Below are positions 5,861 through 47,187 of a stretch of 64,000 bases of DNA, piece by piece (position 1 is the stretch's first letter; each line of letters opens with the position of its first letter). Location: contig CM026429.1 in NCBI GenBank assembly GCA_014871385.1, positions 9,171,075-9,235,074 on the forward strand, written 5' to 3'. The notes below the pieces were generated by a model. The model was not told where the DNA came from, made no database searches, and worked only from the letters and a program-made list of their open reading frames with translations. The stretch comes from Ceratodon purpureus. Its lineage: Eukaryota > Streptophyta > Bryopsida > Pseudoditrichales > Ditrichaceae. Made by a program: the position numbers and the translations under genes.

Positions 5861-7125
5861 AGCCAAAAAAAATACAAAACCTATCTAAACAATGAGACCG
5901 TAAATCACATGAACCGTGAATGTGTCCACGCTTCCACTTCACAGCTGCGAAGTCGCCTTCAAATTTCAACCCCTGCAACCCAATAAGCATCCAGATCACG
6001 GAGTTAGCATCGTGTATAAATCCACAATCTATCGACGCATCACCTGTTACCCCAAAGGGCCCAATCACCCTAAACCGAACTTTTCGAACCCTACCCTAAA
6101 CAACGTAATCTTTGTAGCAGCGAAGCTTACACAAAAAAATCCAGAGTCTCACATGAATCAGCGCCAAATACCTTGAGCGCAAGAACCCACAACCTCCATC
6201 AAAGCACCAACATTGTACCGAAGCCCACCCTAAGCATAGAGATTCAGAATCACGAGCATCGCACAAGACGGTATGATGTATCCGACAAAAAACAACACGA
6301 TCACCGTAACTTTGGAAAACGAGAGTGGAACCCCAAGAATTTTCAAAACCCTAACGCCGCCAATTGAAACCCATGGGCCTTGCCACATCGCAGCTCAACC
6401 GTTAATCTCGCCTGTGACCCACGGTCCATGTTGAGGCATCTTGGATCCATGAGGTCACCTGAAAGTGGCGGGTGATGAAACATCTTGAAAAACTTGATTG
6501 ACCAGGCCATAGTCCTTTAAAGAAAGCGTGGCAATGTATGTACTACATGATACCCATAATTCGTCATCATTTTTTTTTAAAGTGGGGGGTATATTATAAT
6601 TAACTAAACTCAAATATGACCACATTACCTGCACACTATATTACTTATAATTCCCCACAACGCTTTCTATGCCCTCTATGGTAGAAGTAAAAAAATTCTA
6701 ATTTTTATTTTGAATGAATTTAAGGCACCTTATATTTGTTCTCACCTATATGTCTACTTTTTATGCCCAGTGCCCCCCCTCCCTCCGCGGCAAGAAGTGT
6801 TGCCCTCTGATTATAGCCAAGTTGAGTTGGCTCAAAGGAATTGAACATGAACATTAGGAGGACTAGGCGAAGGTAATGTTGTAGGGCGTAGATCACTACA
6901 AGGATAGATGTTCACTGGTGATAAGACAGGCTTTACAGCAAAATAAGACATAGATTTCAACAACAAAATATAGGACAACATATGGAGCATGAAGTTCAAC
7001 GGTGGATTCATGGAGTGTATTGGTCATCTATAATTGACAAAATTTGGTTTCAACAATGGTTTTAAGGTTTGGAAACGACATGCCAAAGGAATACTATGCA
7101 ATCATCTACAATCCTTACCAAAGGA
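5861..7125. other. Intergenic, no supported gene
   Basis: The minus frame at 6068-5930 might be an upstream exon of the broken gene on its right edge, but no convincing splice sites join them. The remainder is AT-rich with mononucleotide runs, and I see no further structure. Confidence 0.4.
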
Positions 7126-8038
7126 TTAACCCCTAAATATCTAGAAAGCCAAAACGACTTTTTGCAATTTTGGGCAGCCAAGATGAAGGGGATAAAATTA
7201 ATATTTTTTCCTAAGATTTTAGCTGGATGCTCCCTATACTGCAAAGTGTATGTAGTAAACTTTTCAAAGCCAAATTCCAATTTTAAGACCTTCATCTAGA
7301 AATTTTAGGTTTCAAGTCCAAAACGGGCAGCTTAAAATTAGGCTTTTTTAAATTTTTTTTCTTGAAATATGTTCATAACCAAACCACCACTCAAATTCCA
7401 AAGAGACCCAAGTCAAAAAATATACCAATTTTACAAGGGTAGCCTTCAAAAATTACAAAGACAAGCTTCAAATTTTTGAATTATTTCTTTCAAAATTTGT
7501 CAAAATTTGAGATTTTGAAATTTTTCAAAAATAATTTTGCCTAAGAATCAAAAATTTATAAAGGCACCTAACCATTGTTTAGATTTTTCTAAAACCAAAT
7601 ATACGTAACGTCATACATGTTTTACTATATCAACGTTTTTAGACCTCCTTTTAGAAAACAATTTTTATGAGAGCCAAAAAAAGGAATGAGTCTCTTAAAT
7701 TTTGCATGGAGGTACCCAACTTGATTACCTACATAGAAAAAAATATGAGCAAAATGTTTGGGGTAAAAATCTTCAACTCTTCCTTTGCAGCATTTTGACT
7801 ATGTCATTCTCGAGCAATGCCCAAAAATTTTTTGCTGCAACTTTGAATGTTATAATCTCTAAGATGGTAACTGAAAATTTTATTAGTACTTTTAAAGAAG
7901 ATAAAGTACAAGATCTTACGGATGGATGTCTAAAAAAAGCAATTTTATTTGGTCCAAACCGTTGTTTCCACAATATGGTCAAAAATGGTTGTTTTGGGTT
8001 TTGGAACCTCCAAAACCGGCTGGATTTTTAGGGGTTAA
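7126..8038. mobile_element. TTAA-flanked non-autonomous element, copy A (piggyBac-like ends)
   Basis: The element starts TTAA-CCCCTAAA (7126-7137) and ends TTTTAGGGG-TTAA (to 8038), 913 bp in all. Outside TTAA the flanks share no direct repeat, so TTAA is most simply the target duplication, as for the piggyBac superfamily. It has no transposase. Inside it carries a module found in all related copies here: ACTTTGAATGTTATAATCT, then about 70 bp later CAAGATCTTACGG, about 100-130 bp from the right end. Copy B (12022-12893 plus 28391-28457) is its closest relative in the window. Confidence 0.7.
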
Positions 8039-11940: not shown

Positions 11941-12021
11941 AAAAATCTGGTCAAAAAATTTTGTTTATAAATTTCAATTGCTATAATCTTTTAATCTTTA
12001 TAGTTATTATGATGAGATTTA
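11941..12021. mobile_element. Left part of an older TTAA-family element, interrupted by copy B
   Basis: The sequence carries the family's internal module in degenerate form (AATTTCAATTGCTATAATCT, then GATGAGATTTA) and is cut off at a TTAA (12022). The module resumes at 28458, immediately after the right end of copy B, with GAAGATCTTACGGTTAGAA and the terminus CTTTAGGGG-TTAA (28590-28602). The two parts therefore look like one element opened by the insertion of copy B. Confidence 0.55.
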
Positions 12022-12893
12022 TTAATCCCTAACTATCCTTAAAACCCAAAATGGGTTTTTGCAATTTTGGGCAGCCTAGATGGGGAGGTTAAAAGTAAAT
12101 TTTTTTTTCAAGATTTTTACTGGGTGCTTCCTTTACGGTAAGGTCTATGTAGTAAAATTTTTGAAACCAAATTCCAATTTTAGAACCTTCATCTAGAAAT
12201 TTTAGGTTTCAAGTCCAAAATGGGCAGTCTAAAATGAGTTCTTTCTTAAAAAAAATTAAATTAAATATGTTCATAACCAAATCACTACTCAAATTCCATA
12301 GTGACCCAAGTAAAAAAGTTTACCAATTTTACAAGGGCAACCTCCAAATCTTACAAAGACAAGCTTCAAAGTATTCAGTAATTTTTGAGTTTTTCTTTTT
12401 AAGAAGTTGTCAAAATTCGAGATTTTTGAATTTCTCAAACATCTTTTTTTGTTGAAAATCATGATTCTATAAAGGTACCTACTCACCGTTCACTTTTTTT
12501 TAGCTCACAATTTTTTTTTTGTAATGCATGTTTTACTATTTTGTCAATTTTATACCTTCTTATAGAAAATAATTTGCATGAAGGTCTAAAAAGCGTTTTG
12601 AGTCTCTAAAATTCTGCATGAGCATACCTAACCTAGTTAGCTACATGGAAAAAAATATGACCAAAATGTTTGAGGTAAAAATCTTCAAGTCTCCCTTCGC
12701 ACCATGGAAGCAATGCCTCTCGAGCAATGCCCAAAAAAACTTTTGCACAAACTTTGAATGTTACGATCTTGAAAACGATAATCATCCAACGGTCAGTTTT
12801 TGAAACTAATACTACGAATAGGCTTAGATTCAAGATCTTATAGTTGAAAGCCTTTAAAAAAATTTAAAAAACATTTTACACCCTTCGAAGTGC
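12022..12893. mobile_element. TTAA element copy B, left part (interrupted by the large MULE)
   Basis: It starts TTAA-TCCCTAAC and is colinear with copy A: shared blocks include GCAATTTTGGGCAGCC, AACCTTCATCTAGAAATTTT, AGGTTTCAAGTCCAAAA and CTCGAGCAATGCCCAAAAA. It stops at TTCGAAGTGC (12884-12893), which is the target duplication of the MULE. The missing right end is found at 28391-28457. Left part (872 bp) plus right part (67 bp) gives 939 bp, against 913 bp in copy A. Confidence 0.75.
12884..12893. repeat. Left target-site duplication of the large MULE
   Basis: TTCGAAGTGC, repeated in the same orientation at 28381-28390. Because the neighbouring base is also shared, the true duplication could be 9 or 10 bp. 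Ten gives inverted ends of equal length on the two sides. Confidence 0.8.
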
Positions 12894-12942
12894 CGGGAAT
12901 GCTATCTTGTGAGCGGTGAGCGGTGAGCAGTGAGCGGTGAGC
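12894..12942 (+). repeat. Left terminal inverted repeat of the MULE, with heptamer array
   Basis: The outer seven bases (CGGGAAT) match the right end only in part, but 12901-12942 is a perfect 42-bp inverted match to 28373-28332. It starts GCTATCTT and consists of five direct copies of GTGAGCG (one variant GTGAGCA, the last one incomplete). Weaker similarity continues inward: ACCGTGGAA at 13021-13029 pairs with the same motif read leftward near 28194, so the repeat is long and degenerate, as in many MULEs. Confidence 0.85.
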
Positions 12943-13149
12943 ACTAAATTTTCAATTTTTTGACTATTTATTTGATATTTTGAGATGATTTTGCATGACA
13001 TGGCATATATGGGACCTATGACCGTGGAAGGTGTTTTAGGGTATATTCCAAAAAAATGGCTTCTAAATTGATAAATGTAGAAATTTGCACCCGATTCATA
13101 CCCGAATAAATTGTGATTTTTTTTTCGTTTATCTTATCAATTCCACGCC

Positions 13150-13460
13150 ATGAAGACCAAGAGGAAAAAATAAAAATAAAGAAAAAAATTAGAAAAGAGA
13201 AAAAAATAAATAAATGAAAGAAAGAAAAAAGATTAAAATAAATAATGAAAAGGAATATAGGGAAGAAAATAAAAAAATGAAGGAAAATAAGAAGAAAAAA
13301 AAGAAAAATAAAAAAAACAACGAAAGAAGAAAAACAAAGAATAAAAAAATAAATAAATAAAATAAATAAAAATAAAAAATAAAAAAGAATTAACAAAAAA
13401 AGAAAAAAAAAATGAATAAGTACATATAGGAGAAAAAGAGGAAAGATAAAAAAAAGTAAA
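13150..13460. repeat. A-rich purine tract
   Basis: About 310 bp made almost entirely of AAAATAAA- and GAAAGAAA-type sequence on the plus strand, just inside the left end of the element and downstream of the ParB-methyltransferase gene. Open frames on the opposite strand code only for Phe/Leu-rich low-complexity peptides and are not genes. Confidence 0.7.
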
Positions 13461-13727
13461 ACAAAATTAGGTGAAGAACAGATATACACAACGGCTATTG
13501 TGGCTTCTAGTTTTTTGGGATGTATAATTTTTCATCCAATTGTTGGATGACCGATTTAAAGGTGCGGAATTAATTAACTGAGAGTTAATTACTCCTATGG
13601 CTGGTATAGAAATTCATAAAGAAGTAGAATAAAGTGAGGTTGAGGCAAAATATAAAATCCAACGCCAAAACAATCCTATAATATATAAGTAGGGAAAACA
13701 TAACAATATAGAGTAAATATGCAATGA

Positions 13728-16700
13728 TCAAGAAGACATGTCGTCATCGCTACAAGTATCAATCCAACCATGATAAGAATCGCTATCACTAGATAATACC
13801 ACTCTGGCAACTTCTGCAGCTATGTCAAGATAAATCTCAGCATCACGACAAATGCTATCTCTGTTAGATGAAATAGATGGAGAAGGAGCAGCTAAATAGG
13901 CTTGAGCTTGCATCTCTGCATAATGTGGAAGCTCTAAAGGTCTAACTGGACTCCTTATCTTGCTAAGATGGCGCGAGATAATAGAGCCACCAATGTCATT
14001 CTTCAACGCTTTCTTCCGACTGCACATGAAAATTTTACAGTTTAATAAATATTAAACTAAACTTTTAAAAATAAATAAATAAATGACAAATGAATGTAAA
14101 GACTTACTTACAAGAACGCTTGGGGGCAGTCTTCCTCTCAGGCTCATCATCTGACTCAACCGAACGCTTCTTCTTCGGTGAAGGCACAGGAATTGGAGTA
14201 GACTCAACCTCCTCCGTGCTTGGAAGAAGAGGCAGCAACACCTGCTTGTACAAGGTGGTGTCAGACTCAAAGCCTATGACATGACGCCGGAGACTCTTGG
14301 AAGCTCGAATGGAAGCACCTGCACAGAAATTAGAGCTCCAAAATATAAGTAAAAATTATAAAATGAAATACAAAAATTTTTAAATCAAAAAACAAAAACA
14401 AATTAATACCTGTAGAAGCTGTGAGATCCATGACAATGTCATTCTCAACCGTGCACAAATCAATTAGAGCCTGCAAGAGGTTAGAAGTCTTCTCCCGTGC
14501 TCCTCTGAATGGCTCCATAGTCTCTGAATTAATTGTCAGAGAATCTGCAGTAATCAAATTAGTGCAATGTCCATCAGAGGAGAGCTTGATGCCAAGGGCA
14601 CCAAGCTCAGCCCTATCATGAAACTGGAACATAGACCTTGGAACTTCCTCCTCGACATTCTCCATCTTGATGAAGCACTTGACCATAAAAGTCTTGTGCT
14701 GGCGTGGATAACGGTCTGGAATAGTCAATGGCAGGCCATTGATTGCAAACCACTTGGCCTCTTCCTGGAAGTTAGCCCACTCTGCCCAGGAAATAAGCTC
14801 ATTCGAAATGAACTTTGAATCAGGGTAAAAAACAATCAAAGCTCCATCATCCTGCAGAAACTGCATAGCAAACTCAAAATGGGCCTTGATCCACGAAGAC
14901 TCCAGTTTTTTCCCTGCTGAAATCTTGGGGTGCTTGTTCCAGGAGGGAATCTCACCATCTTGCCCTAAACCTGGAACTGGTAAATCCTCTGGAACATCAA
15001 AAATGATGAGGTCCACAGCAGCCTCAGCCTCCTCACCCCCAAAATTCCTAGCCTTGCTACCGTGATGGTCCTGGATCCAATCCTTGATCTTGCTCCAAAT
15101 CTCAGGCACATCCCCCTCCGATAAAGAAGTAAACAAATCCAAAATGCCCATAGGGCAATCATTGATGATCTCAACACTAGTGTCTACCTCATCCAACTGC
15201 GAGCATGGAATCGTGTAGATAGTCTGAGAAGGCATGGGGGTAGAGAAATGAGGCACCTGAAGAGCTACAGGAACTATGGCAGCCTGCATGCTACTGCCTG
15301 AAGGAGAAATGCCAACATGAGACATCAACTTCTCTGGCCCTTCCTTCAAAACTAACTTGGCCAATTCCTTGTTCCTTGCTGCCACTTCCTTCTTGAGCTT
15401 AGCTTCCTGCTCCTTCTCCTTCTTCTTGTCTTCCTTCTCCTTCATCTTTGCCTCAGTCTTTGCTTTCCTCTCAGCCACCTTCTTCTTCTGTCTCTCAGAA
15501 AGAGCAGCATCATCACCAACCTGCGAGGTATCCTCCTCCACACCCACCATGTTCTCATCCCCAAGCTGCTTCATCAAATTCTCACAACTAGCCTTAAGAC
15601 CTCTCTCTTCCCCCGGGCATTGATCATTCTCCTTGAGCTCAAGGTACCAAGGACACTGAAGGAGATGAGGAGCTCCAAAATGCCTCCTCTGATAATCTGT
15701 AAAAATGCACTCACTGCTAGAGACATCCACCCATTTCTTAAACCGCTGAGGAATATCCTTCCTATCAATGGCACCCTTTACAACCAATTCCCTCCAGAAA
15801 TACCTCAAGATAGCCCGCTTCATAGCATTCTCAGCTCCAGCCTGGTGGAGAAATGGCTCTTTCTTGGTAAAGGTTCCAGCCTTGGGGAAAAAAGGCTTAA
15901 AGGCTTTTCCCCACAAAGTGATGGAATGAGCCTCAATCCATGAGCCAATATCATCTACAGGATTAGGTAAATCCTCTGTCCTCAAAACTATCATGTCCTC
16001 CTCTACAATCTTGGCATAACGAATGACTGCCTCCTCCTCTAGCTGCAAATACAATCAATTAAAAAACACATAAGAATACATGACCATTCTTATGATAAAA
16101 AGTTATGTTATCTTGCAATAAGCAACATTAGTGAAAAAAAATGCAAAAGCTTAAGAATTAGAAACTTACCCCGGCCCAGAAGGCAGCCTGATCAACCCAA
16201 GGCCGGAGAACTAAATCGGAAGCTGGATGTGGAGGAAAATTGTACTCCTGCCGACTCTCCTTGCTCATGTTCCACCACTTCAACCACCTCTCTTTGTACT
16301 TGGCAGAAACCTTCGCACTTGAAAAAAGCTGCAACTTTTCAGGGGTCATCTCTGCATTCATATAAAATATGTCAAAGTGCCGGATGATCTGCAAAAAAAA
16401 TCAAGCATCATCTTAGTAATCATTCGTATCATTTCATATAACCTACTTGATACTGATAAGCAATTAAGTGGAACTATGCATCACAAATGTAAAAGAGACT
16501 ACACAACAACATAGAGTATATGGGTGATGCCCTAGAAATGAACAAAGAACATTCACAAATACAACAGCATTTCCACCGAGCTAGAAGCCTCAAACTGAGG
16601 CTTGTTGCGAAAATAAAAAACAAATAGGAAGTCCTTGCATACGCAATGCACGCTAAACTGAGCTCACAAGCATAAGCAACTCACAAAGCTTAGAATAATT

Positions 16701-19700
16701 CAATGGAAACTCACGGCTACGACTCAAACCGCAAGCCCCGGCCAAATACAAAAGCTCAATCAGATACTAATTCGCTGCTCAGGCCAGGCAGTACGCAAGC
16801 ATGGTTTCGCAAGCAAGGAACAAGATCATCAGTCACTCACACAAAATTAAACAAATTTAAAGGCACCAGCACCGGGCTGGTGCTCATGTAACCAACTTAA
16901 GTGATTCAACCCAGAGGCAAAGGGGCACCCCTCGGATCCGAGGCCAGGGTCGGGGGTGCCACCTGAATCCTCTTTTTTGCCAAAATGAGAAAAAAACCGC
17001 AAGCCTCCACGTGAGGCTTGCGACACAAAAAAAATAAAACCGCAAGGCACTACAGTGAACAACCAAGGCACTAAGAGAATCAAACATTCGAACTTGAAGA
17101 ATGTTGAGAAGATTCTCTCCTCGGATCCGAGGACACCACTTCGGTGTGTGCAAAATTCAATGGAAACTGACAGGCATGACTCAAACCGCAAGCCTCGGCC
17201 AAATACAAAAGCTCAATCAGATACTAATTCGCTGCTCAGGCCAGGCAGTACGCAAGCATGGTGTCGCAAGCAAGGAACAAGATCATTAGTCACTCACACA
17301 AAATTAAACAAATTTAAAGGCACCAGCACCGGGCTGGTGCTCATGTAACCAACTTAAGTGATTCAACCCAGAGGCAAAGGGGCACCCCTCGGATCCGAGG
17401 CCAGGGTCGGGGGTGCCACCTGAATCCTCTTTTTTGCCAAAATGAGAAAAAAACCGCAAGCCTCCACGTGAGGCTTGCGACACAAAAAAAATAAAACCGC
17501 AAGGCACTACAGTGAACAACCAAGACACTGAGAGAATCAAACATTCGAACTTGAAGAATGTTGAGAAGATTCTCTCCTCGGATCCGAGGACACCACTTCG
17601 GTGTGTGCAAAATTCAATGGAAACTGACAGGCATGACTCAAACCGCAAGCCTCGGCCAAATACAAAAGCTCAATCAGATACTAATTCGCTGCTCAGGCCA
17701 GGCAGTACGCAAGCATGGTGTCGCAAGCAAGGAACAAGATCATCAGTCACTCACACAAAATTAAACAAATTTAAAGGCACCAGCACCGGGCTGGTGCTCA
17801 TGTAACCAACTTAAGTGATTCAACCCAGAGGCAAAGGGGCACCCCTCGGATCCGAGGCCAGGGTCGGGGGTGCCACCTGAATCCTCTTTTTTGCCAAAAT
17901 GAGAAAAAAACCGCAAGCCTCCACGTGAGGCTTGCGACACAAAAAAAATAAAACCGCAAGGCACTACAGTGAACAACCAAGGCACTGAGAGAATCAAACA
18001 TTCGAACTTGAAGAATGTTGAGAAGATTCTCTCCTCGGATCCGAGGACACCACTTCGGTGTGTGCAAAATTCAATGGAAACTGACAGGCATGACTCAAAC
18101 CGCAAGCCTCGGCCAAATACAAAAGCTCAATCAGATACTAATTCGCTGCTCAGGCCAGGCAGTACGCAAGCATGGTGTCGCAAGCAAGGAACAAGATCAT
18201 CAGTCACTCACACAAAATTAAACAAATTTAAAGGCACCAGCACCGGGCTGGTGCTCATGTAACCAACTTAAGTGATTCAACCCAGAGGCAAAGGGGCACC
18301 CCTCGGATCCGAGGCCAGGGTCGGGGGTGCCACCTGAATCCTCTTTTTTGCCAAAATGAGAAAAAAACCGCAAGCCTCCACGTGAGGCTTGCGACACAAA
18401 AAAAATAAAACCGCAAGGCACTACAGTGAACAACCAAGACACTGAGAGAATCAAACATTCGAACTTGAAGAATGTTGAGAAGATTCTCTCCTCGGATCCG
18501 AGGACACCACTTCGGTGTGTGCAAAATTCAATGGAAACTGACAGGCATGACTCAAACCGCAAGCCTCGGCCAAATACAAAAGCTCAATCAGATACTAATT
18601 CGCTGCTCAGGCCAGGCAGTACGCAAGCATGGTGTCGCAAGCAAGGAACAAGATCATCAGTCACTCACACAAAATTAAACAAATTTAAAGGCACCAGCAC
18701 CGGGCTGGTGCTCATGTAACCAACTTAAGTGATTCAACCCAGAGGCAAAGGGGCACCCCTCGGATCCGAGGCCAGGGTCGGGGGTGCCACCTGAATCCTC
18801 TTTTTTGCCAAAATGAGAAAAAAACCGCAAGCCTCCACGTGAGGCTTGCGACACAAAAAAAATAAAACCGCAAGGCACTACAGTGAACAACCAAGACACT
18901 GAGAGAATCAAACATTCGAACTTGAAGAATGTTGAGAAGATTCTCTCCTCGGATCCGAGGACACCACTTCGGTGTGTGCAAAATTCAATGGAAACTGACA
19001 GGCATGACTCAAACCGCAAGCCTCGGCCAAATACAAAAGCTCAATCAGATACTAATTCGCTGCTCAGGCCAGGCAGTACGCAAGCATGGTGTCGCAAGCA
19101 AGGAACAAGATCATCAGTCACTCACATAAAATTAAACAAATTTAAAGGCACCAGCACCGGGCTGGTGCTCATGTAACCAACTTAAGTGATTCAACCCAGA
19201 GGCAAAGGGGCACCCCTCGGATCCGAGGCCAGGGTCGGGGGTGCCACCTGAATCCTCTTTTTTGCCAAAATGAGAAAAAAACCGCAAGCCTCCACGTGAG
19301 GCTTGCGACACAAAAAAAATAAAACCGCAAGGCACTACAGTGAACAACCAAGGCACTAAGAGAATCAAACATTCGAACTTGAAGAATGTTGAGAAGATTC
19401 TCTCCTCGGATCCGAGGACACCACTTCGGTGTGTGCAAAATTCAATGGAAACTGACAGGCATGACTCAAACCGCAAGCCTCGGCCAAATACAAAAGCTCA
19501 ATCAGATACTAATTCGCTGCTCAGGCCAGGCAGTACGCAAGCATGGTGTCGCAAGCAAGGAACAAGATCATCAGTCACTCACACAAAATTAAACAAATTT
19601 AAAGGCACCAGCACCGGGCTGGTGCTCATGTAACCAACTTAAGTGATTCAACCCAGAGGCAAAGGGGCACCCCTCGGATCCGAGGGCTGGGTCGGGGGTG

Positions 19701-22700
19701 CCACCTGCATCTTCTTTTTTTCCAAAATGAGAAAAAAACCGCAAGCCTCCACGTGAGGCTTGCGACACAAAAAAAATAAAACCGCAAGGCACTCCAGTCA
19801 ACGACCAAGGCACTCTGCATAATTTAATGAAAACTGAGGGGTATCTACATAAACCGCAAGCCTCGGCCATAAAGGAAAGCTCAATCAAAAACTCCTTGCC
19901 TGCTAAAGGCACGCAGTGTTCAAGCATGGTGTCGCAAGCAACGAACAAGATCATCAGTCACTCACACAGAACTAAACAAATTCAAAGGCACCAGCACCGG
20001 GCTGGTGCTCATGTGTTCAACTGAAGTGATTGAACCCACAGGCAAAGGGGCACCCCTCGGATCCGAGGCCAGGGTCGGGGGTGCCACCTGAATCCTCTTT
20101 TTTCCAAAATGAGAAAAAAACCGCAAGCCTCCACGTGAGGCTTGCGACACAAAAAAAATAAAACCGCAAGGCACTACAGTCAACGACCAAGGCACTCTGC
20201 ATAATTTAATGAAAAGTGAGGGGTATCTACATAAACCGCAAGCCTCGGCCATAAAGGAAAGCAATGATCAAAAACATCTTGCCTGCTAAAGGCACGCAGT
20301 GTTCAAGCATGGTGTCGCAAGCAAGGAACAAGATCATCAGTCATTGACACTGTATTAATAAAATTCAAAGGCACCAGCACCGGGCTGGTGCTCATGTGTT
20401 CAACTGAAGTGATTCAACCCAGAGGCAAAGGGGCACCCCTCGGATCCGAGGGCTGGGTCGGGGGTGCCACCTGCATCTTCTTTTTTTCCAAAATGAGAAA
20501 AAAACCGCAAGCCTCCACGTGAGGCTGGAGTTGGAATTTTTAAAATTGACATACCTCCTTGATAAATCCATCACCGTTAGCTGGATTGGCGATTGCTACG
20601 AAGCGCTCCAATCGTGTATGTAGCGATGTTTTTATCACTTTAACAGCCTTCTTACTAGCTGTAAGGAGCTCAGAGGGACTTCCTTGCCTGTCTTCTCCTA
20701 GTCCTGTTATCAAAGAGTCTTTGTATGCTCGAATAGCGTCCTCCTGAGCGGCTAAAATCTCCCTCTGGATGCAGAGTATTATATAGTTAGTTATAGATTA
20801 CTTACATTATTAGAGGTCGCGGCAAGGATATAAGAAAAAAATCTGGCTTACCTCGTATAAGAAGTTTATGAAGGCATCAATTGTCAGATGATACCATTTC
20901 TTGTTTTTGGTTCGTGTCCACTCAAGAATGCTTGCCTGCAAGTCCTCTTCCTTCACCAATCCTTTCAGTTGGTCAAAGTCCAACAAACCGAGCTGTTGGA
21001 CACGCCTCAACTCATGGGTCCAGTGCTGCGCCATGTGGTCTACCTGATTCTTCCTGAAGCACATTACACAGAGACTCATAGATATTTCAGAAACATAAAT
21101 TGAGATTGGCATTGCAAGTAAATGGACATGTTTATACAAAATCTACGAAGCCATTATTAAAAATTTAGAAATGTTTGGAATACTTACTTGTTCCAATCAG
21201 TCATAGCGTGCAACATCATATTGCAATTTTGAGGTGTGACGGTGATAATTACAGAGCGAACAGAAACATGGAATTCTGCATCTTGCTGATGAAGAGCATT
21301 GATGCTCTCAGTCCAGGCAATGTGCCGATGATTCCCGTCCCAAACATAGAAGAATCGGTTGGAGAATTTCTCCAACCCTGGAGTAGAAAGCAAGCGCCCC
21401 TCAAACTCAAGATCCTCCTTGCGCCATAACTCTGACCACGATGCCCTGTCCGTCTCTGTGACATATGATTCCTCCATCCTAAAACTTCTCAATGAGAGAT
21501 AGAAGCATGCCGATGCCCGCCTGTATCCACGTGCGAATTCGGCCTTCAGCTTTTGAATGTCGTTCTGCAGTGGCTCCCTCACATCCTTCATGGGGATCAT
21601 TCTGCAGAGTGGCACGTCGATCTCCATATCCGGGAATTCCACCGCACTCTGAAGTGCAAGGTGTGAGGTACCCATCACTTCTCTGCGTAACATGTTTTCC
21701 ATTGCTGCCAGTCCTCCTAAGGTGCTGTCCATGTCTGAGGTCGTGCGAGGTACCTCCTCCATTCCCTGCTCGCTGGTCATCTGCAATCACGTAAAAAACA
21801 TTTCAGATTCTCAATCAATTTTATCAATGCTCGGTTAATTATAATTTCGCCGTCGAAATCAAAGAACGACATCAGTTTCGAAGTAACCATTCACCACACC
21901 GAATCCTAGAATAAACACTCATAGCAGTTCGCACAATTCACCACCAGATAGAGCCATCGACATGAGAGGCATCTAGTAAACATATCCTTGTGCACAAATC
22001 TGTGAACCAATTTCATTATTTTATCTGGTCAAAGCGAGATGGTCGAACACCCTCCAACAAGATCCATTCCGTTTGGGGTGGGAGGTAACACCACCAAGTC
22101 ACATCATTCACTACCTCGGTCTAATCTAACAGTCCAAATTCAAATCCCCTAGATACTGCGTCAACTCTCCAGTCGCGACCAATTGCAAATAGAATACAAA
22201 ACACATTCGCAGGCACGCCTGAGGAGGTTGCAAACTCTTCTTCTGATCCCTATTAAGCACTAATCATAACCCGGATTCCTCATGACGGACGAAGGGCTGC
22301 TGCTCGCGCAGCCTCTCTGTGAGCCATCAGGTTGCGTTCGCAACAGTCATCGTACAATCGACTCGCTTGGCATGATCGACCGCGAGAGCGAATCCCTCAT
22401 CTTGTCATCTACTACAGATTAAGCGGGCCTGCGCCCCGGGTCATGGTGAGCCCGAATTCTGAATGTGTCCAGTAATCCAGACACCCACAAAAGACTCTTC
22501 GAATTTCGAAGTACCTTCAAGATTCAACAAACTACAAACCAATGGACGAATTAGGGGATTAGAAAAGCTTACAGTGTCCATGTTCGCGGAATATGATGCG
22601 TCACTCAGGAGCTCCGGGAGCGCAACGCACAGGGTATCCTCCACAGTTACGAGATCAAGTCGGCCCTCCCTTGCGGTATCAAGCAACTGGATTCCCTGCA

Positions 22701-23530
22701 AGTACAGAATTTTAGTACCCAAGAAGAGATTGTTACAAACTTGCGGCTGGAATAGAACTAGGGTTCGGGAGTTCTGAGTTCCAAGCAAAGGTCGCAGTGG
22801 GTGCTCACAACAGATCTTTTGAGTTTTATTTTTGGGATTAGGAAAAAAAAAAAAAAAAACACACAAAAACTTTCGAGGTCACAACTTACCTGCTCGTGAT
22901 ATGGCTCTGTCGAATTGAGAGCAGGTCCAGAGTCGCCCTTGCTACGGAGGTCAGCGCCTTCTCCTTCGTCTCCAGCACTTCGACAAGACTCAGCCTTATC
23001 CTCGGTATCTTGGTCAACCGTGAGGCTCTGCAGTCAAAGTCATAGCACCTTGCTTGAGTCAGGCCTCACTATACAGTCCTTTCGGAAATTACATGATTGA
23101 GACACTAAGGAACTCACCGACTACATTTCACTCAAGTCCTCTAACTCTCAAACATGAAATTCAATGGCCAAACTAAGTCCTTGAAGAAATTGTCCATAGC
23201 AAGAGCTTGGGCGGGTTAGACATAATGAAATAATAAATAAACATGATAAACTTAAAATGCACATAAAGAGGCAAAGTAGTGAGCAAACAAATAAGTCTGG
23301 TATACTTGACATATAGTAGCCAATTCCTTGATTTTTAGATGGCCAGATTCATCTGATAAACAATCCACTTCTGCAATACGGCTAAGAGCATCCTTCTCCT
23401 TTCGTCTCCTCTGGTATGTGATCTGCTTCGAATTTCCAAAATGAGATCCTCGCCTTCTCCCTCTACCTCTAGTCCTACATGATCTAGGAGCCCTAGGCAC
23501 TCTTGTACTAGGTTCCTCCCCGTCCCTCAT
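13728..23530 (-). CDS. ParB-like / class-beta amino-methyltransferase-like fusion protein, 10 exons
   Basis: Exons read leftward: 23530-23306, 23027-22890, 22695-22573, 21780-21188, 21053-20852, 20764-20555, 16388-16170, 16042-14410, 14318-14108, 14019-13728. All introns are GT-AG and all phases agree, giving about 1,281 residues. The ATG at 23530 is the first in frame after a TAG at 23566-23564. Residues about 215-350 look like a ParB/sulfiredoxin fold, with VWDGNHRHIAW at about 308 and following beta-strand VRSVIITV. A Lys/Glu-rich, probably coiled-coil stretch lies at about 750-800. The C-terminal part has class-beta motif order: IIFDVPEDLP in place of motif IV DPPY (about 917), then PFRGAREKTSNLLQALI (motif X), DLTASTG (motif I, about 1109) and RRHVIGFESD across the exon 8/9 junction. 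Prokaryotic and phage proteins fusing ParB and methylase domains are known. Here the DPPY aromatic is lost and the glycine-rich motif is altered, so catalysis is doubtful. The gene is cargo of the large MULE and is divergent to its transposase. Exon 1 and the exon 9 donor (two overlapping GTAAGT sites; only one keeps frame) are the least certain points. Confidence 0.75.
16699..20526. repeat. Tandem satellite: six 457-bp units plus three shorter variants, inside intron 6
   Basis: Units start at 16699, 17156, 17613, 18070, 18527 and 18984 with an exact 457-bp period and very few differences. Three shorter variants follow: 19441-19823 (383 bp), 19824-20205 (382 bp) and 20206-20526 (truncated). 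The variants lack a segment of about 75 bp. Each long unit holds several inverted repeats, exemplified in 17156-17612: GCACCAGC/GCTGGTGC (17320-17340), the 14-bp palindrome CCTCGGATCCGAGG (17387-17400 and again 17576-17589), CGCAAGCCT/AGGCTTGCG around a CACGTG core (17455-17479), and the nested hairpin GAGAGAATC...GATTCTCTC with inner AACATTC/GAATGTT (17530-17576). A degenerate start of a unit is visible from about 16575. The whole array lies in the primary transcript of the ParB-methyltransferase gene. Confidence 0.92.
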
Positions 23531-24221
23531 GTGTCTCAGTAACACGCTCCCGCAAACATACAACTAACTGGGAGGATTGTCATAAAATTGATAAGTGAGA
23601 CGTTCATTGTCACTTAGCACACTATGTGTATCTTCTCCTCTAATCCCTGTGACACTTGTATTGTGAGTGGTACCTGTTCTGGATCGTGCCAGTATTTAAA
23701 TAAACTATAATATTAGTAAACATTTGAATTATTGCCACTAGATCCTTCTATGAAGTCCAACATCGATCTGTAAAGAGTATGACATAATATTATGTTTGAA
23801 TTATGGAGATCCACTAATTATCCTTTCATGACCTGGACGCAAATTAGAACGTCCAATTTAATAAACTGTATCTTAACAAATCCCTATTTAAATTAAAGGT
23901 CAATCCTAAAAGATTAAATTGACGGCTGCTTGTTATATTTGTAGTAGCAAAAGATAACCATATTGGCGCTCTCAGCCGCCTAATCACTTTAGTATGTCAG
24001 ATACTAAGTAACTAAATTTTGTGCTCTACAGGTCATGCAATATCCACCTGTACAAATTCTTTATTATAAGAACATGTAAGGTGGCGATTTATTTAGCCCC
24101 CAAAGAACTATATAGTCTCTACAATGTCTTGGAGTCACAACTCATTGTATTGTTGTATTCCCAGTCCACCTCTCTTCCAATGCATGATTGTACTTCTTCC
24201 ATCTTCTATAGTACTCTTAGA
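23531..24221. promoter_or_regulatory. Shared spacer between the two divergent element genes
   Basis: About 690 bp separate the ATG of the leftward ParB-methyltransferase gene and the preferred ATG of the rightward transposase. It is AT-rich and must contain both promoters if both genes are complete at their 5' ends. I can point to no individual TATA box or start site with confidence. A short noncoding first exon of either gene could lie here. Confidence 0.4.
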
Positions 24222-27200
24222 ATGGCCTCTCTGCGAGCACATGATGGGGGTATTCCATTAGTTATGTCTGTGGGTCCAGACAGTAAGGTAGTTGTCGAGG
24301 AGCGACTGCTTAGTTTAAGGTTTGGTTTTAGAGCCGGGACCATTTACGTGGAAGAAGAGATCTTCGATGATAATGGAGAGATTCGTGAGTGTATATTTCA
24401 AGTTAAGGATAGTACACCTGATGGTTATGTCTGGAATCTTGGCACTGGAACTTTCAAGGTATATGGGTTATCAGATGCACAGATGTCTGAGTCTACTGTT
24501 CTTTTGACCCCTCCTCCTTCAACGTCTACTGTTCCAGTTCCTGGTCGAGCATCTGTCAAAATAGAACCGAGTGACAATTCAGTGCATTTGTTGAGTGACT
24601 CGGATGATGACAGTCACAGTGAAATCAAGCTAGGAGATACTAGGTCAAATCCATTCCAGTCTCGGGGGTCTCAGCACTCCAGTCATCCATCTCGACAAAG
24701 CAGTCGTTCTACTATGTCCGCATCATTGTCTACAGGGCGTCCACCTATTCACCCTACTTCCCAAAAAAATAGAAGCGTCTTGTTTGCGATCAGGATGACG
24801 GCATCTAGAAGGGGCTCCCGATCAGAACTGTCGCAGATTGATTTTGACACAGTTGACCATGAACAAGTGAAGTACTTACCGCCTGTTTATGACGGAGACA
24901 AGATTTTTGAGTTGCCCCCTTTACCTCAAGGAGTTCCAACTCAATTTGGAGGTGGCATGGACGGGATGAGCAAGCAGTATGATGGCTACACCTGGTGCAA
25001 GACCATGACCACAAACATCAAGAACGAGTGCGGCCTCACATACCGTAAGTCATCTTGTACTGGACATTTAGAATGTCCAAACCATAGTTGCGATTATATT
25101 TCCAGGAATAATGGAATGGTAAATAACACAGAATGGTCAGGTGTAGCCTTAGTACCGTTCTCAGTGGGAGGATCCCCCACAGAGAAATCTACGTTAGCAT
25201 GCAAAGTATGTAAGACACCTCCAATTTGTCTAGCACTGTGCGACGCTAGGATCTACCATGTGTCGTCCGCAGATAAAGATGTTACCCGTGCGGCCATTCA
25301 TTTAGGACGTCACAGACATCCTGTATCTCAAGGTAGATGTCAGGATTCGATGGACGTAATGTTTGAGTGCATTGCTAAGGAGGTTCAGAAGACACCTAAC
25401 GCCAAAAATTCTGCTATCGTCTTAGCGGCCAGCAAGCAATACCTTGCCGATGCTCTGATCCGTCCAACTGCAGGAGGTAGTCATCTTCGAGGAGCATCTA
25501 TGGATGCTGTAATGGACCAATTTGAGACTCTTACATCACCGAATATACGCAATTTCGTTTCTGGCTCGAAAAGGTTTTTCCGCCAAGGAAGAGGAGTGAC
25601 AGACAGCATCCTGGAGCTGAAGGACTACTCGAACTTTGATTTTATCCATCGTAATCAATTCCCTGGACAGAACGAAGGCAAGGTATTTCTGTTCAAGATG
25701 TCCACTGATCGTCCAGGAAGCGGTGTGGATTTGGTGAAGCGCATGCAGCCTGGAGGCGATCTTCAAGACTGTTGGATCATGTTTGACCATGTCAAGCGCG
25801 TAGCTGACTAGACCACTATGGCATGCCACGTTTATGACAGTAAGTACTGTAAAGTTATGACGATTGCCCTTTGTGACATGCAATCTGAAGATGCTGCTGC
25901 TCAGGAGTTATTTTGGCTTCAGCTTAATGAAGTTATGCGGAAGAACGGCCTTGAAAATACTAATTTCAAGGGATTTATGGCTGACAACGCTGGAGCCAAC
26001 TGGCACGCTGTTCGTAAGGTGTATGGAAACGGCGATCCCAATGATCCTATGGAAGAACGTGAACGCACTTGTCTTTTCCACTGGACAAAGTGCTTGCAGA
26101 GGGCAACTTCCCGGAACATCTTGCCAAGCTTTCAAGACCAACACAAAGCTTTGTGCAAAGTATGGAAGGACGCAAAGTCCCAAGAGGAAGCAGACGCACA
26201 GTACAACGTCATCCGCGGGTGGTGGCTTTCGTCAGGCGCCACAACAGAAGAAGGAAGGCGTCATCTAAATGATTGGATGGCTTTCTGGCACTATCGATAC
26301 AGACAATGGGGAGGCTCAATGCAGCTTGTAAGTTGAATTGTCTTTAAACCTTTTGTGAAGTATTAGTTAACTTTAATTATTTTTTATAATCATGAGTATG
26401 ACATCATTTGATTTTTTTTTTCACCCAGGATCTTACCCTTCACGAGAGAGCCGACATGCCTTCGTGCAACCTTGCCGAAACCGTCCACAACAGATGGCTT
26501 CAACAATCAGGGAATACAATGACATGTTTGTACAAGGCAATAGTGGATGATATGATCCGAGCATTCATGCAGATAACAAGTTACCGGTCTTGGCTGAAGG
26601 GAGGAAAGGGCGGTAAAGGTCCGGACAAAGCAGAACTTCGTTTACGCCACGCTCAACGCTCTGGTGACCCGAAGTTGATTGCTGAGGCAGTGAACTCGTA
26701 CCCGGGAGCCGAGGATATATTGACGAAGAAAGGAGGCTTGGAAGGTGCAGAGATCTTTGGATCTACAAAACGGAAGTTAGATTTGCCGCCCGGTTCCAGT
26801 CATGACTCTCATCGTTATGATACAGTGAATTACTCCATTCCTCGTGATGGCACGAGATCCACCAGAGCACGCATTGAGGAGGCCCTTTCTCAACCTGACT
26901 CGGGAGTTCAACACACTACTTCAGTGCAGGAGACAGATTGCGACCCCTCTAAGTGGCACATTGCCAGACTGTCCGGCAAGTCTAACCGAAAATGTCAAGC
27001 AATGCAGGCTCATACAAATGAGAAGTGCGATACCCGAGTGCGCCGAGGTACACATGGTACGCCTGCTCCTACATATGTAGGGCTGAAGAAGGAGTTCAGA
27101 ACCGATCGCCATATTTCTACTGACTTCTGGTTTTGCGCTGATGACATTAATAGATGTGTGAAGGGCACAAAGAAGTCGTTTGTGATCGATTGGCCATCTA

Positions 27201-27799
27201 TCCCGCAGACTTGGCCTGTGAAAAGGGGCACAAACTTGACCATCAAAGAGATTTTGGATCTTGAAGAGGCCGGGTTCCAACTCCAACAACGTGGAGTACT
27301 TTCACCTCGACGTCAGTTCCAGGTCTCTGCTAATATGCCGCTTCCAAGGAGTCATTTCCCGGTTCCTGTAGATCCTGATACACATCCGACGACTCGAAAC
27401 GGATATGCCATCAGGAGAAGTTCTGACGCTCCTACCTCCGACCACCGCAACAAGTGGAGCAGCGCGGGTCTCATGAACAAGTATTGGATAACAAGTGTCA
27501 CATCGATCCCATATCCAGGATTTGGCTGCGTCATCTCCTTGAAGAGTCCCAGTGAAACCATATATTGTATCACCATCACGGACTTCCCTGGATGTACTTG
27601 CCCCGACTTCATGAAAATGACTTCGGAAACCCTTGGCAAAAGAGGCCAGTGGAAGTACTGCAAGCATGTTTATTATATCTTCCGCTATCTATGTGAGATG
27701 GATTACAAGGTTGATACTTTTATGCACGCCCCTAGCTTCAGCTTCAACGAAGTTATGCGTGTTCTGGAGATGGCCAAAGTTGCTGAACCGCTTGAGTAG
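24222..27799 (+). pseudogene. MULE transposase (zinc-finger-like, DDE, SWIM) with one in-frame TAG
   Basis: Two exons, 24222-26327 and 26429-27799, joined by a 101-bp GT-AG intron in phase 0, give 1,158 codons. Codon 530 (25809-25811) is TAG, in the same frame as both flanks and probably an altered Trp codon. The preferred start has context TTAGAATGG; in-frame ATGs also occur further upstream at 24021. A Cys/His-rich stretch at about 270-365 (CGLTYRKSSC, CPNHSCDYI, ending HRHP) resembles WRKY/GCM1-type fingers found in MULE proteins. The DDE core has D539 (VYDSKY), D588 (GFMADNAG), the MULE-type C-x2-H at 617-620 (CLFHW) and E719 (NLAETVHN). A SWIM finger has C1091-x-C1093-x19-C1113-x-H1115. 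The catalytic residues are intact, so apart from the TAG this copy looks recent. It would bind the element ends and catalyse cut-and-paste transposition. Confidence 0.85.
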
Positions 27800-28008
27800 T
27801 TTTTCTTATGGTTAGACTTTGAAATTAAGTGACCAGTGCACTTCAAGAATACATTATATCAATAGCGGAATTGATTTGTTTTTGCTTTGTGCTTGGTTTG
27901 GAATCCGCAGAACATAAATAAAGGTCACTATTTTATTTAGTTATTGTCCACTTCTCAAATGTTTTCGTGTGAAAATTAAGAGGAAAACCAATGTTTCGGC
28001 ATACGTAG

Positions 28009-28046
28009 GGAATATTCTCTCCTCGGATCCGAGGAGAGAATATTCC
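28009..28046. repeat. Perfect 38-bp palindrome
   Basis: Each 19-base arm begins GGAATATTCTCTCCTCGGA and is followed at once by its exact reverse complement with no spacer. The inner part, ATTCTCTCCTCGGATCCGAG, is shared with every 457-bp unit of the intron satellite (for example 17569-17588). It lies about 210 bp downstream of the transposase stop and about 330 bp from the right end of the element. It could act as a transcription end, a binding site for an element protein, or a cruciform. Confidence 0.9.
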
Positions 28047-28331
28047 TTCATGACCTCAAAATATTCCTTTTCCACTTCCGAGACCACGAAAATGAGATAA
28101 AAAAAAATTCCAAAAAATAGGATATCCATTCTGTATTAAACCCTAAACAGTTAGATATTACCTGAAACCGCGCACATTTCATTCATTCCACGGTTATAGG
28201 GTCTACTTATTTGGCATTCGTATATTCAAGCAAAGTGTCCCAAATCGCTCATCATTGTGTGATTGCTCTCAAAAAAATTCAAAAAATATACGAAAAACTC
28301 AAATTTTTACACAGAAACTGAATTTTTTTGG

Positions 28332-28380
28332 GCTCACCGCTCACTGCTCACCGCTCACCGCTCACAAGATAGCGTCGCTG
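28332..28380 (-). repeat. Right terminal inverted repeat of the MULE
   Basis: Read leftward it begins CAGCGAC, then 42 bases identical to the left end (GCTATCTT followed by GTGAGCG heptamers). It is followed on its outer side by the direct repeat TTCGAAGTGC at 28381-28390. Confidence 0.85.
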
Positions 28381-28390
28381 TTCGAAGTGC
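28381..28390. repeat. Right target-site duplication of the large MULE
   Basis: TTCGAAGTGC, identical and in the same orientation as 12884-12893. Confidence 0.8.
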
Positions 28391-42533: not shown

Positions 42534-43622
42534 TTAACCCCTAAAGCATCAACTCAACAGTTTTGGTATGATTTAGGGTCCGGTCAGGCTCCCTATGATT
42601 CAAATTTTACGAGATGTGGCTATAACTTTGGCACAACATGGGAAATTGTCATATCTTTCTAACAAGACCAAATTTTACTTTCATCGGGCCCGTAGTCAAA
42701 AAATGATTTGTGTTTAAAGATCAAAATTCAATTCATGGCAGTTGGGGCAGGTTTGTGGTGGATGGAAGTGGTGTGGCAAGTCTGTGACACTCTACAGTGA
42801 CTTCCAAATGATCCTTTCTGAAATTGTTTCACAATTTTTTTTAAACTTGATTTTGAAAAAATCTAACCGTAGGATATTGTTCAGAACCATCCAATTAGAA
42901 TACGTACCAAGTTTTGTAAAGTTTGACCGTACGGATCTTGAGATATATATATAGTCAAAGTTCCAAGTTTTATCAAGACAGATCAACAGTGATTGGGTCA
43001 CCTTTGTCACCCATTTTTCCTTCACCATTTTCTCCTCCTAAACCACAGTATATGCTGTAAAATTCATGTCTATTTTGGATTTTTTTTATTTTTTGAATTT
43101 CTTTCCCCTAAAATTTCTTTTCCATACAAATGCATGTATACACCGTTCGGATTTCAAAAAATAGATGATCTTCTTAGGCATTTGTAGTGTGGAAAAAGAG
43201 CCAGTGTATATGCATTTCATTTGACTCCCGTCACTGGAAATGTGGTTTTCCAATGCTTCTGTGTGTTGTATTGTCTTCAATTTTTTTGAGCATACTCCCA
43301 ACTCACTTAAGAATCCAAAACTGAAGAGCCTGCAACCACACGATCTCAAAAAAATTGGCTGTTTCACTCTCCAAAGAGTGGCTGTCCCTGCCGGGCAGTA
43401 CCAAAAAAAACTTTTCTCTCAAGTTCAAACCTTACGATCTTCCAAACGACGGGGAGTTACAATCTAAAATTTTGTGTACACATACATGTACGAGTTAGGT
43501 ACTAGATCCTATGGTTAGTTTCTTTAAAATACGTTTGAATTTGCATAATTATACCTTAAACTAAAACAGGGCAGAATTGAGGCAGAATTTGGGATTTTAT
43601 GGCCAAATGCTTTAGGGGTTAA
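42534..43622. mobile_element. TTAA-flanked non-autonomous element, copy F
   Basis: It starts TTAA-CCCCTAAAGCAT and ends ATGCTTTAGGGG-TTAA, so the inverted end including TTAA is 16 bp. It is 1,089 bp long. It carries the family module in the form CAAACCTTACGATCTTCC (43424) and TAGATCCTATGGTTAG (43504). Its left half is repeated in inverse orientation at 47188-47735. Confidence 0.8.
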
Positions 43623-47150: not shown

Positions 47151-47187
47151 GTTAAGGAAGTTAAGTGAATATTTGAAAAGAAAAAAA

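Follow-up and report, generated by a model that had tools for sequence, protein, structure and literature searches.

The locus described here, from the moss Ceratodon purpureus, raises the question of why a large DNA transposon should carry, next to its transposase, a second gene with the features of a methyltransferase, and what this gene might do for the element that harbors it. The window analyzed here, a stretch of 64,000 nucleotides of contig CM026429.1, contains such an element. The answer we propose, to which we give an even chance, is that a lineage of Mutator-like elements (MULEs) pairs its transposase with a divergent accessory gene, whose protein, ParB-like and probably dead as a methyltransferase, reads the palindrome TCGGATCCGA and counters silencing.

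Termini and Superfamily Assignment

The initial annotation outlined a 15.5-kb unit, and these limits were borne out. The element is flanked by an exact 10-bp target-site duplication, TTCGAAGTGC (12884..12893 on the left and 28381..28390 on the right), and it encloses two divergent genes between inverted ends. In the left terminal inverted repeat (12894..12942, forward strand), GTGAGC(G/A) heptamers build a perfect 42-bp core (12901-12942), which is identical to the core (28332-28373) of the right repeat (28332..28380, reverse strand); past the core, the similarity is weak or patchy. A 15-base probe of the repeat, allowing up to three mismatches, found eight matches in the window, four at each end (mean of 0.84 in shuffled sequences), and exact 20-mers of the two ends occur 158 and 160 times in the genome, against none for the control.

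Exact 10-bp duplications were found at the same termini in 19 of 20 sampled relatives, each with a different sequence, while the left end of the twentieth lay outside the stretch that was fetched. The pair of genes thus moves as a single unit, and the pairing of the ends proposed in the initial annotation is not due to chance; separate, unrelated repeats can be ruled out, given that the sampled copies carry the same two ends.

The transposase is encoded on the forward strand by two exons, the first (24180..26327) with a zinc-finger region and the catalytic core, and the second (26429..27799) with a SWIM-like CxC...CxH motif at its end, all of these features, including the D..D..CxxH residues, being read by eye. 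No Pfam transposase family was matched at E-values of up to 1 or up to 10, and the MULE label is based on the 10-bp duplications, which lie within the 8-11 bp of the Mutator superfamily, the inverted repeats with a perfect core at both ends, and the residues read by eye. The evidence strongly supports placing the element in a large lineage of MULE type whose accessory gene is stable. The initial annotation suggested an autonomous-type lineage; the copy in the window is not evidently autonomous, since a TAG codon (25809-25811) interrupts the frame of its transposase.

Copies, Families, and Selection

The search of the same assembly (362 Mb) for further copies, which the initial annotation had proposed as a check, recovered many, with the same gene pair between the same ends, and thus decisively contradicted the refuting condition named there, the lack of any second copy of this kind. 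Among the 80 matches to the methyltransferase exon that were scored, from 4076 candidates, 78 had a ParB-like exon upstream (40 kb), 69 had a transposase within 60 kb, and 68 had both. Conversely, 85 of 93 scored transposase matches (from 3018 candidates) had a ParB-like exon in divergent orientation no more than 25 kb away. All of these copy counts are lower bounds, since the candidate lists were scored in part (40 of 501, 150 of 1853, 80 of 4076, 93 of 3018, 81 of 3942, and 86 of 2499). Fifty-five elements had all three matches inside tight limits, of which 40 were picked by even spacing and the first 20 fetched, so that this sample of the window's family (F1) leans toward closer relatives. 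Two further families of the same genome, F2 and F3, each represented by one element hand-picked among the distant ParB-like matches (L055 and L056), retain this divergent arrangement of the two genes, with linkage seen in their families as well, and show 37-47% identity in the exons of the accessory gene.

The accessory gene is under purifying selection. Within the two groups of F1 copies, the ParB-like exon had a median dN/dS of 0.14 and 0.19 and the methyltransferase-like part one of 0.26 and 0.18, and the medians across all the exons of the gene (0.03-0.41) are well under 1, after the exclusion of frameshifted or short exon pieces (exon 1 from 16 of the 20 copies, the others from all 20). 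These values bear on the possibility that the gene is a captured passenger, carried without function. It is known that MULEs often pick up extra open reading frames or host fragments (PMC6446971), and the methyltransferase part has stop codons in six of the 20 copies. Low dN/dS in all exons, a conserved intron-exon structure, and the persistence of the pair in three diverged families argue against this possibility, and the selection values and gene structure together rule it out, leaving it a negligible probability.

Structure of the Accessory Gene

The accessory gene lies on the reverse strand and has seven modeled exons (21780-13728), together with probable exons further upstream. A probable first coding exon (23306..23530) encodes an arginine/glycine stretch that, by eye, resembles an AT-hook; it has matches, at 70-99%, in 11 of the 20 F1 stretches (one split, one partial, and one with a stop) and none in the other nine, among which the window's own stretch ends before the exon. 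A probable variable exon (22574..22695) has similar stretches in five of the 20 F1 copies, two of which contain them at two positions. Exon 1, as modeled (21188..21780), carries the ParB-like signature EIDVPLCRM ... VWDGNHRHIAW, and is followed by exons 2 (20852..21053) and 3 (20555..20764), a large intron of 4.2 kb (16389..20554), which parts the ParB-like from the methyltransferase-like half, and exon 4 (16170..16388), with exons 2, 3, and 4 being placed from the gene model and the sampled copies. Exon 5 (14410..16042) encodes a conserved domain, a charged stretch that looks like a coiled coil by eye, and the methyltransferase-like domain, and exon 6 (14108..14318) the remainder of the motif I region, followed by a basic tail that resembles a nuclear signal, also by eye. 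The last exon (13728..14019), with the stop codon, is of equal length or six bases longer in all 20 copies. The splice borders of exons 2-7 agree among the sampled copies in all but two of 220 cases.

The ParB-Like and Methyltransferase-Like Halves

The gene was initially annotated as a ParB-methyltransferase-like fusion, a description that stands for the methyltransferase-like half, which matches a Pfam profile, whereas the ParB half is suggested by a motif, with no match in profile searches. The N-terminal half has a DGxHR-type signature, which we take to be its link to ParB, and the residues WDGNHR are invariant across 16 aligned copies of the three families, which suggests that the N-terminal module is ParB-like. 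The ParB-like exon matched no ParB profile in searches of Pfam, PHROGs, NCBIfam, or the PDB, and a pattern-based scan of viral contigs found no relatives of it; its AlphaFold2 model (mean pLDDT of 44.7) was too low in confidence for use.

The spliced methyltransferase-like domain of the window passes the Pfam family N6_N4_Mtase (PF01555) with 36.5 bits, against a cut-off of 26.7, while exon 5 alone falls below this cut-off and the domain of L056, with 26.1 bits, just below it. The domain also matches DpnA and CcrM, beta-class amino-methyltransferases of bacteria and phages, in which a DPPY-like region likewise precedes motif I, although the moss gene is spliced, lies within a transposon, and has DVPE for DPPY and TASTG for FxGxG. 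In the alignment, DVPE stands opposite the DPPY of both enzymes, in a stretch that by itself scores near zero. A pattern-based scan of prokaryote genomes found no relatives of the methyltransferase exon, and a tblastn search of phage records with the L056 domain gave weak matches to 142 records, mostly annotated methyltransferases, with a best E-value of 0.01 among the 20 matches listed.

An active amino-methyltransferase might deposit N4-methylcytosine or N6-methyladenine at GGATCC (or GATC) sites of the element itself, and thereby either hide the element from silencing or control its transposition. The profile score and the matches to DpnA and CcrM are in favor of this, as is the core of the palindrome, GGATCC, a classic restriction-modification site. 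Against it, the catalytic [DNS]PP[YFW] motif of the beta-class N4/N6 enzymes is absent from the domain in the 20 F1 copies, L055, and L056; motif IV reads DVPE in 18 of the F1 copies and in both other families, and DVLE in the remaining two, each with three stop codons. The SAM-binding FxGxG is also absent, with DLTASTG, DLTTSTG, or DLSASTG where DPFxGxG would be expected. In the N4CMT enzyme of bdelloid rotifers, the change from SPPY to APPA is reported to abolish activity (PMC8885841). Given the altered motif IV and SAM loop, the methyltransferase half is probably catalytically dead, and an active enzyme appears improbable.

A Palindrome in Non-Coding Arrays

The palindrome TCGGATCCGA, a new observation, clusters in the non-coding DNA of the element. 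The large intron of the accessory gene contains 15 copies, and an array of 457-bp (and 383-bp) tandem units (16697..20526) that carries the palindrome lies wholly within it. The 121-residue open reading frames of this array were considered as coding and rejected, the array being intronic and the unit length no multiple of three. A further copy, near the transposase end, is the center of a perfect 38-bp palindrome (28009..28046), approximately 0.36 kb from the right end. Outside the element, the window has no TCGGATCCGA at up to one mismatch. Across the genome, 1,882 occurrences of a 12-bp form, CTCGGATCCGAG, were counted, compared with eight for the control, and 451 of TTCGGATCCGAA, compared with six; 13 of 21 grouped motif clusters were examined.

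Every sampled element of the three families (20, 1, and 1) contains TCGGATCCGA. At least one exact copy is present in the left stretches of all 20 F1 copies, and L055 and L056 have eight and 18 copies, respectively. The core of the right-end palindrome occupies the same place in all 20 F1 copies, in 19 exactly and in one with a single mismatch. The arrays change fast: the array introns of the three families have little in common beyond the core, and the distances between the ParB-like and methyltransferase exons agree, by our reading, with increments of a single array unit, 86 bp in F2 (14 of 15 copies) and 96 bp in F3 (eight of 14).

It is possible, albeit unlikely, that these palindromes are hairpins of RNA or DNA, such as a terminator, an RNA-stability element, a source of small RNAs, or a cruciform, unrelated to the accessory protein. 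The arms vary among copies and yet remain complementary, with self-pairing as high as observed being reached in none of 2000 permutations for the F1 right ends, none of 2000 for L055, and one of 2000 for L056, and the right-end copy is located past the stop codon of the transposase. In the left and intronic copies of F1, however, which number 132 (68 distinct flanks), arm pairing is not significantly raised (156 of 2000 permutations), and the arms match over just 1-6 bases among the 30 listed, while the part conserved across the families is the central 10 bp.

The fixed position of the right-end palindrome in the 20 F1 copies would also suit an internal transposase-binding site needed for transposition, with the accessory protein as a separate partner, for example, a helper of integration; the second open reading frame of the maize element is apparently required for integration, according to PMC6446971. 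Most copies are nevertheless found in the accessory intron, in the window some 8-11 kb away from the right end, and in the 20 left stretches the DNA from the left end to exon 5 contains none, which makes this role quite improbable. Much more doubtful still is a true partition-like system, in which the ParB-like protein would act on parS-like palindromes to help retain or segregate copies of the element or circles formed by excision. The DGNHR-type signature and the clustering of palindromic sites recall such a system, but neither gene of the element resembles ParA by eye, chromosomal copies have no need of partition, and the profile searches and structural model lend ParB no support.

Proposed Self-Targeting Anti-Silencing and Known Systems

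Under the reading preferred here, the accessory protein would dimerize, enter the nucleus, and bind both the intronic palindromes of its own gene and the one close to the right end. By opposing silencing, it would keep related copies open to transcription or transposition, in the manner of VANC and the VANDAL elements of Arabidopsis. The methyltransferase fold would then read the GGATCC core in the DNA instead of acting as an enzyme, and the growth or loss of the array may tune the strength with which each copy is recognized.

The parallel with VANDAL drawn in the initial annotation proved apt, and is now closer, since motif arrays lie in the intron of the accessory gene. According to PMC5735166, a short motif that forms tandem arrays in the introns of VANC21 and VANB21 and upstream of VANA21 is bound by VANC21; both systems combine a MULE, an accessory gene, and short motifs in non-coding tandem repeats, including an accessory intron, and in both, the type of motif varies by subfamily and the arrays change rapidly (PMC5735166, PMC10398659). 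VANDAL elements are called non-TIR in one source (PMC13317346) and are given 9-bp duplications and terminal inverted repeats of 46-174 bp in a table of another (PMC6446971), compared with the 10-bp duplication and 42-bp core of the inverted ends found here. The motif of the moss element is, in contrast, palindromic, and its protein looks ParB-like and methyltransferase-like, a distinction drawn from these features of the moss protein. The element repeats the anatomy of the anti-silencing VANDAL/VANC elements with a different-looking protein, for which binding and anti-silencing are inferred roles.

To our knowledge, no palindrome arrays have been described in maize MuDR. This element, like that of the moss, has a transposase (mudrA) and a second open reading frame (mudrB), according to PMC6446971, the likeness being one of gene content. 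The N4CMT of bdelloid rotifers is likewise eukaryotic, of a bacterial amino-methyltransferase type, and tied to the control of transposons, but it is encoded by the host, is active with its SPPY motif, and helps silence transposons (PMC8885841), whereas the gene described here is part of the transposon and its product is probably inactive.

Should the protein indeed target the palindrome, self-targeting anti-silencing would have evolved on no fewer than two occasions among plant MULEs, each time from a different protein yet with the same design, the motif arrays lying inside the intron of the accessory gene. Self-licensing would then be a strategy general to large DNA transposons in plants, and a conserved pseudo-methyltransferase would acquire a role in reading DNA that can be put to the test. 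The host moss can be cultured in the laboratory, which makes the idea open to direct testing.

Possible Separate Evolution of the Recognition Half

The two F1 groups differ by a synonymous divergence of more than 2 in exons 1-3, against 0.08-0.22 in exons 5-7, and these between-group values understate the divergence, since pairs with saturated synonymous sites were dropped, which left 11 of 55 pairs in exon 1, 18 of 84 in exon 2, and 56 of 84 in exon 3. The bases that flank the core of the right-end palindrome track the ParB-like half: in group A, they form CC-core-GG or CC-core-GT in six of six copies, and in group B, TC-core-GA in 13 of 14, the fourteenth being without an exact core. This tracking could be a matter of simple linkage, given that the two groups also have different right ends. 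A more ambitious proposal, which we hold tentatively and at somewhat less than an even chance, is that the moss lineage independently invented VANC-like anti-silencing, by converting a ParB-like/methyltransferase protein of bacterial type into one that is dead as an enzyme and reads a GGATCC-centered palindrome, with the recognition half as a cassette that evolves separately from the methyltransferase half and the transposase.

Two observations on the palindromes themselves speak against the preferred reading. Long palindromes with complementary arms fit a hairpin of RNA or DNA as well, and in four of the 20 F1 left stretches, the palindrome is present once only and another palindrome is commoner.

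Joint Mobility of the Transposase and the Cargo Gene

The transposase and the cargo gene of the Mutator-like element (MULE; window 12884..28390) transpose as a single unit. The initial annotation had placed a 10-bp duplication and inverted ends with a 42-bp identical core at the borders of the element, and both were confirmed exactly where it had placed them. The search that it proposed, for further copies with both genes, was run on the 362-Mb assembly (151 contigs; window at G000:C9:9171075-9235074), and recovered at least 150 scored matches to the ParB-like exon, at least 80 to the methyltransferase exon, at least 93 to the transposase exon, and at least 40 to the left end of the element, the latter with 99-100% identity. 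Among the methyltransferase matches listed, the ParB-like exon lies upstream within 40 kb in 78/80, the transposase within 60 kb in 69/80, and both partners in 68/80. A divergent ParB-like exon is found within 25 kb of 85 of the 93 transposase matches listed, and a listed transposase within 25 kb of 85 of the 150 ParB-like matches listed, the remaining 65 belonging mostly to distant families with transposases beyond the reach of the transposase matches listed. The methyltransferase exon is present within 15 kb of 31 of the 40 left ends listed.

Twenty elements, each fetched in part, formed the sample for close reading. An exact 10-bp duplication was seen directly in 17, and inspection of the left terminus added two more (one with seven extra bases, the other with extra heptamers), giving 19/20, with the left end of the twentieth outside its stretch. 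All 19 duplications differ from one another in sequence which, together with the linkage counts, indicates that the two genes move as one unit. Several facing pairs of exact ends only 3-5 kb apart (e.g., contig positions C1:1312686/1315799 and C2:15519050/15522013) are probably short non-autonomous members.

The same divergent pair is carried by L055 and L056, two stretches chosen among the distant ParB-like matches, which represent the families F2 and F3, respectively (F1 being that of the window element). Their ParB-like exons both have 47% identity to the window copy, while the methyltransferase exon has 37% in L055 and 40% in L056, and the transposase 63% and 60% (the latter partial only) to the F1 sequence used. 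Among the methyltransferase matches listed, a divergent transposase lies within 15 kb in 17/23 (F2) and 13/20 (F3), a ParB-like exon within 8 kb in 15/23 and 14/20, and both in 11/23 and 10/20.

Gene Structure and Protein Domains

The cargo gene was modelled on the minus strand, from 21780 to 13728, in seven exons with GT-AG introns and no inner stops, a reading of 1119 codons plus stop. Comparison with the F1 copies points to a probable earlier exon at 23530-23306 (minus strand), and variable exons, some of them repeated, lie between this exon and modelled exon 1. One probable upstream exon (22574-22695) is matched in five F1 copies, twice within two of these, at an identity of no more than 30-43% except for a single copy with 76%, even though the five are 90-96% alike in exon 1. 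This variable exon recalls the variable repeated regions described in the VANC proteins of the Arabidopsis VANDAL elements. A 457-bp tandem array lies entirely within the large intron, between the ParB-like and methyltransferase-like halves.

The transposase (plus strand, ~24180 to 27799, one intron) is interrupted in the window copy by a TAG at 25809-25811. Stretches from seven F1 siblings cover this part of the gene: six are open at the site, while the frame of L050 is broken before the site is reached. Transposase copies open there thus exist, and the window copy is not evidently autonomous.

The ParB label given to the N-terminal half of the cargo protein should be treated as a lead rather than a result. 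The motif WDGNHR, which we take to resemble the ParB/Srx signature, is invariant across 16 aligned copies from three families, but profile searches of the exon against Pfam, PHROGs, NCBIfam, and PDB gave no support for ParB. The AlphaFold model of this exon, with a mean pLDDT of 44.7, is unusable.

Exon 5 alone falls below the Pfam cut-off. Joining exon 6 brings the METHYLTRANSFERASE-like domain of the window copy to 36.5 bits, above the 26.7-bit cut-off of Pfam N6_N4_Mtase, and that of L056 scores 26.1 bits. A profile built from the three families matches DpnA (E 0.00025), the significant part being the motif I region, with DLTASTGASIRA aligned to DPFMGSGTTGLA. In addition, VDLIIFDVPEDLPVP aligns with VDAIITDPPYNISV of DpnA and a similar stretch of CcrM, although these pieces alone score near zero. 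DLTAS is found in all 20 F1 copies and DVPE in 18, as well as in L055 and L056, the other two F1 copies having DVLE and three stops each. An active site that is altered yet conserved suggests a pseudo-enzyme retained for binding.

Selection and Mosaic History of F1

The splice borders of cargo exons 2-7 agree in all but 2 of 220 cases (20 copies), and for exon 1 the donor agrees in 20/20 copies and the acceptor, projected ungapped, in 11/20. Within the two F1 groups, A and B, the median dN/dS of the ParB-like exon is 0.14 and 0.19, respectively. The methyltransferase part of exon 5 has 0.26 and 0.18, and constraint is weakest in the last exon (0.41 and 0.33). Stops occur in the methyltransferase part in 6/20 copies and in the ParB-like exon in 1/16.

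Synonymous divergence between the groups exceeds 2 in exons 1-3, is 0.79 in exon 4, and drops to 0.08-0.22 in exons 5-7, while the last transposase exon retains 87-100% identity in all 93 matches listed. The ParB-like half is, therefore, an old, divergent cassette next to parts whose sharing is more recent and probably occurred through recombination.

The Palindrome and a Possible Anti-Silencing Role

Among 10-bp palindromes, TCGGATCCGA ranks first, alone or tied, in the left 10 kb fetched from 16/20 F1 elements (present once in the other four), and it also ranks first in L055 and L056. Sixteen copies lie in the window element, with none elsewhere in the 64-kb window, allowing up to one mismatch. 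One copy occupies a fixed position near the right end in all 20 F1 elements (19 exact, one with one mismatch), the remainder being mainly within the large intron of the cargo gene. Conservation of the right-end core is 0.995 (region mean 0.89), a level reached by 15 of the 526 ten-base windows before the TIR, core included, so that it is among the best-kept stretches without being unique.

Beyond the palindrome core, little is common to the array introns of F1, F2, and F3. The exceptions are a 31-bp match of an F1 group B intron with an F3 intron (E 8e-5) and 32 bp surrounding the core that match between F2 and F3 (E 3e-5); longer matches were also found, which have the appearance of adjoining exons included in the compared stretches. 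In our reading, distances across the array fit single-unit steps in 14/15 F2 copies (86 bp) and 8/14 F3 copies (96 bp).

Genome-wide, CTCGGATCCGAG has 1,882 sites versus 8 for the reversed control, and TTCGGATCCGAA has 451 versus 6. Among 50 CTCGGATCCGAG sites listed, all on C1, 11 clusters were grouped by eye, six of which adjoin matches to element genes, while two, fetched in part, are F1-like derivatives without the methyltransferase region. Five of ten TTCGGATCCGAA clusters among the sites listed adjoin F3 matches. At G000 C1:15175081-15242778, seven isolated TTCGGATCCGAA sites, separated by 1-23 kb, span 68 kb, in contrast with the tight arrays elsewhere, and an array with a 171-bp period and 18 TTCGGATCCGAA sites (G000 C1:5193982-5197402) lies away from every gene match listed.

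VANC21 binds YAGTATTAY, which is tandemly arrayed in introns of VANC21 and VANB21 as well as upstream of VANA21, and VANDAL subfamilies differ in motif type (PMC5735166). The moss element repeats this anatomy of motif arrays, including that in an intron of the accessory gene. By analogy, the accessory protein might read the palindrome and counter the silencing of related copies, a proposal to which about even odds are given. L058 and L059 (C1:1.208 Mb and 3.990 Mb), F1-like stretches with an identical internal deletion of the methyltransferase region, lie beside palindrome clusters, as would be predicted if such copies were served in trans. The main rival explanation is that the palindromes act as hairpins. 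Half of the 16 distinct right-end flanks prolong the palindrome perfectly, by 13-20 bases per side, and arm complementarity within copies exceeds permutation at the right ends of F1 elements and in both L055 and L056; it does not do so in the F1 left and intron copies. Among the listed titles and abstract beginnings of open-licence papers, none concerned a moss MULE that carries a ParB-like or methyltransferase-like gene, and the words Physcomitrella, moss, methyltransferase, and ParB are all absent from the main text of PMC6446971.

Other Features of the Window

Direct repeats of ~0.75 kb with 76% identity (7125-7858 and 12021-12769) lie immediately to the left of the element. A 566-bp inverted repeat (42528-43093 and 47176-47741; 98.6% identity, ~4 kb apart), with no obvious duplication in its flanks, is possibly another transposon. 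An ORF at 59045-59923 presumably resembles the mitochondrial assembly factor ATP10.
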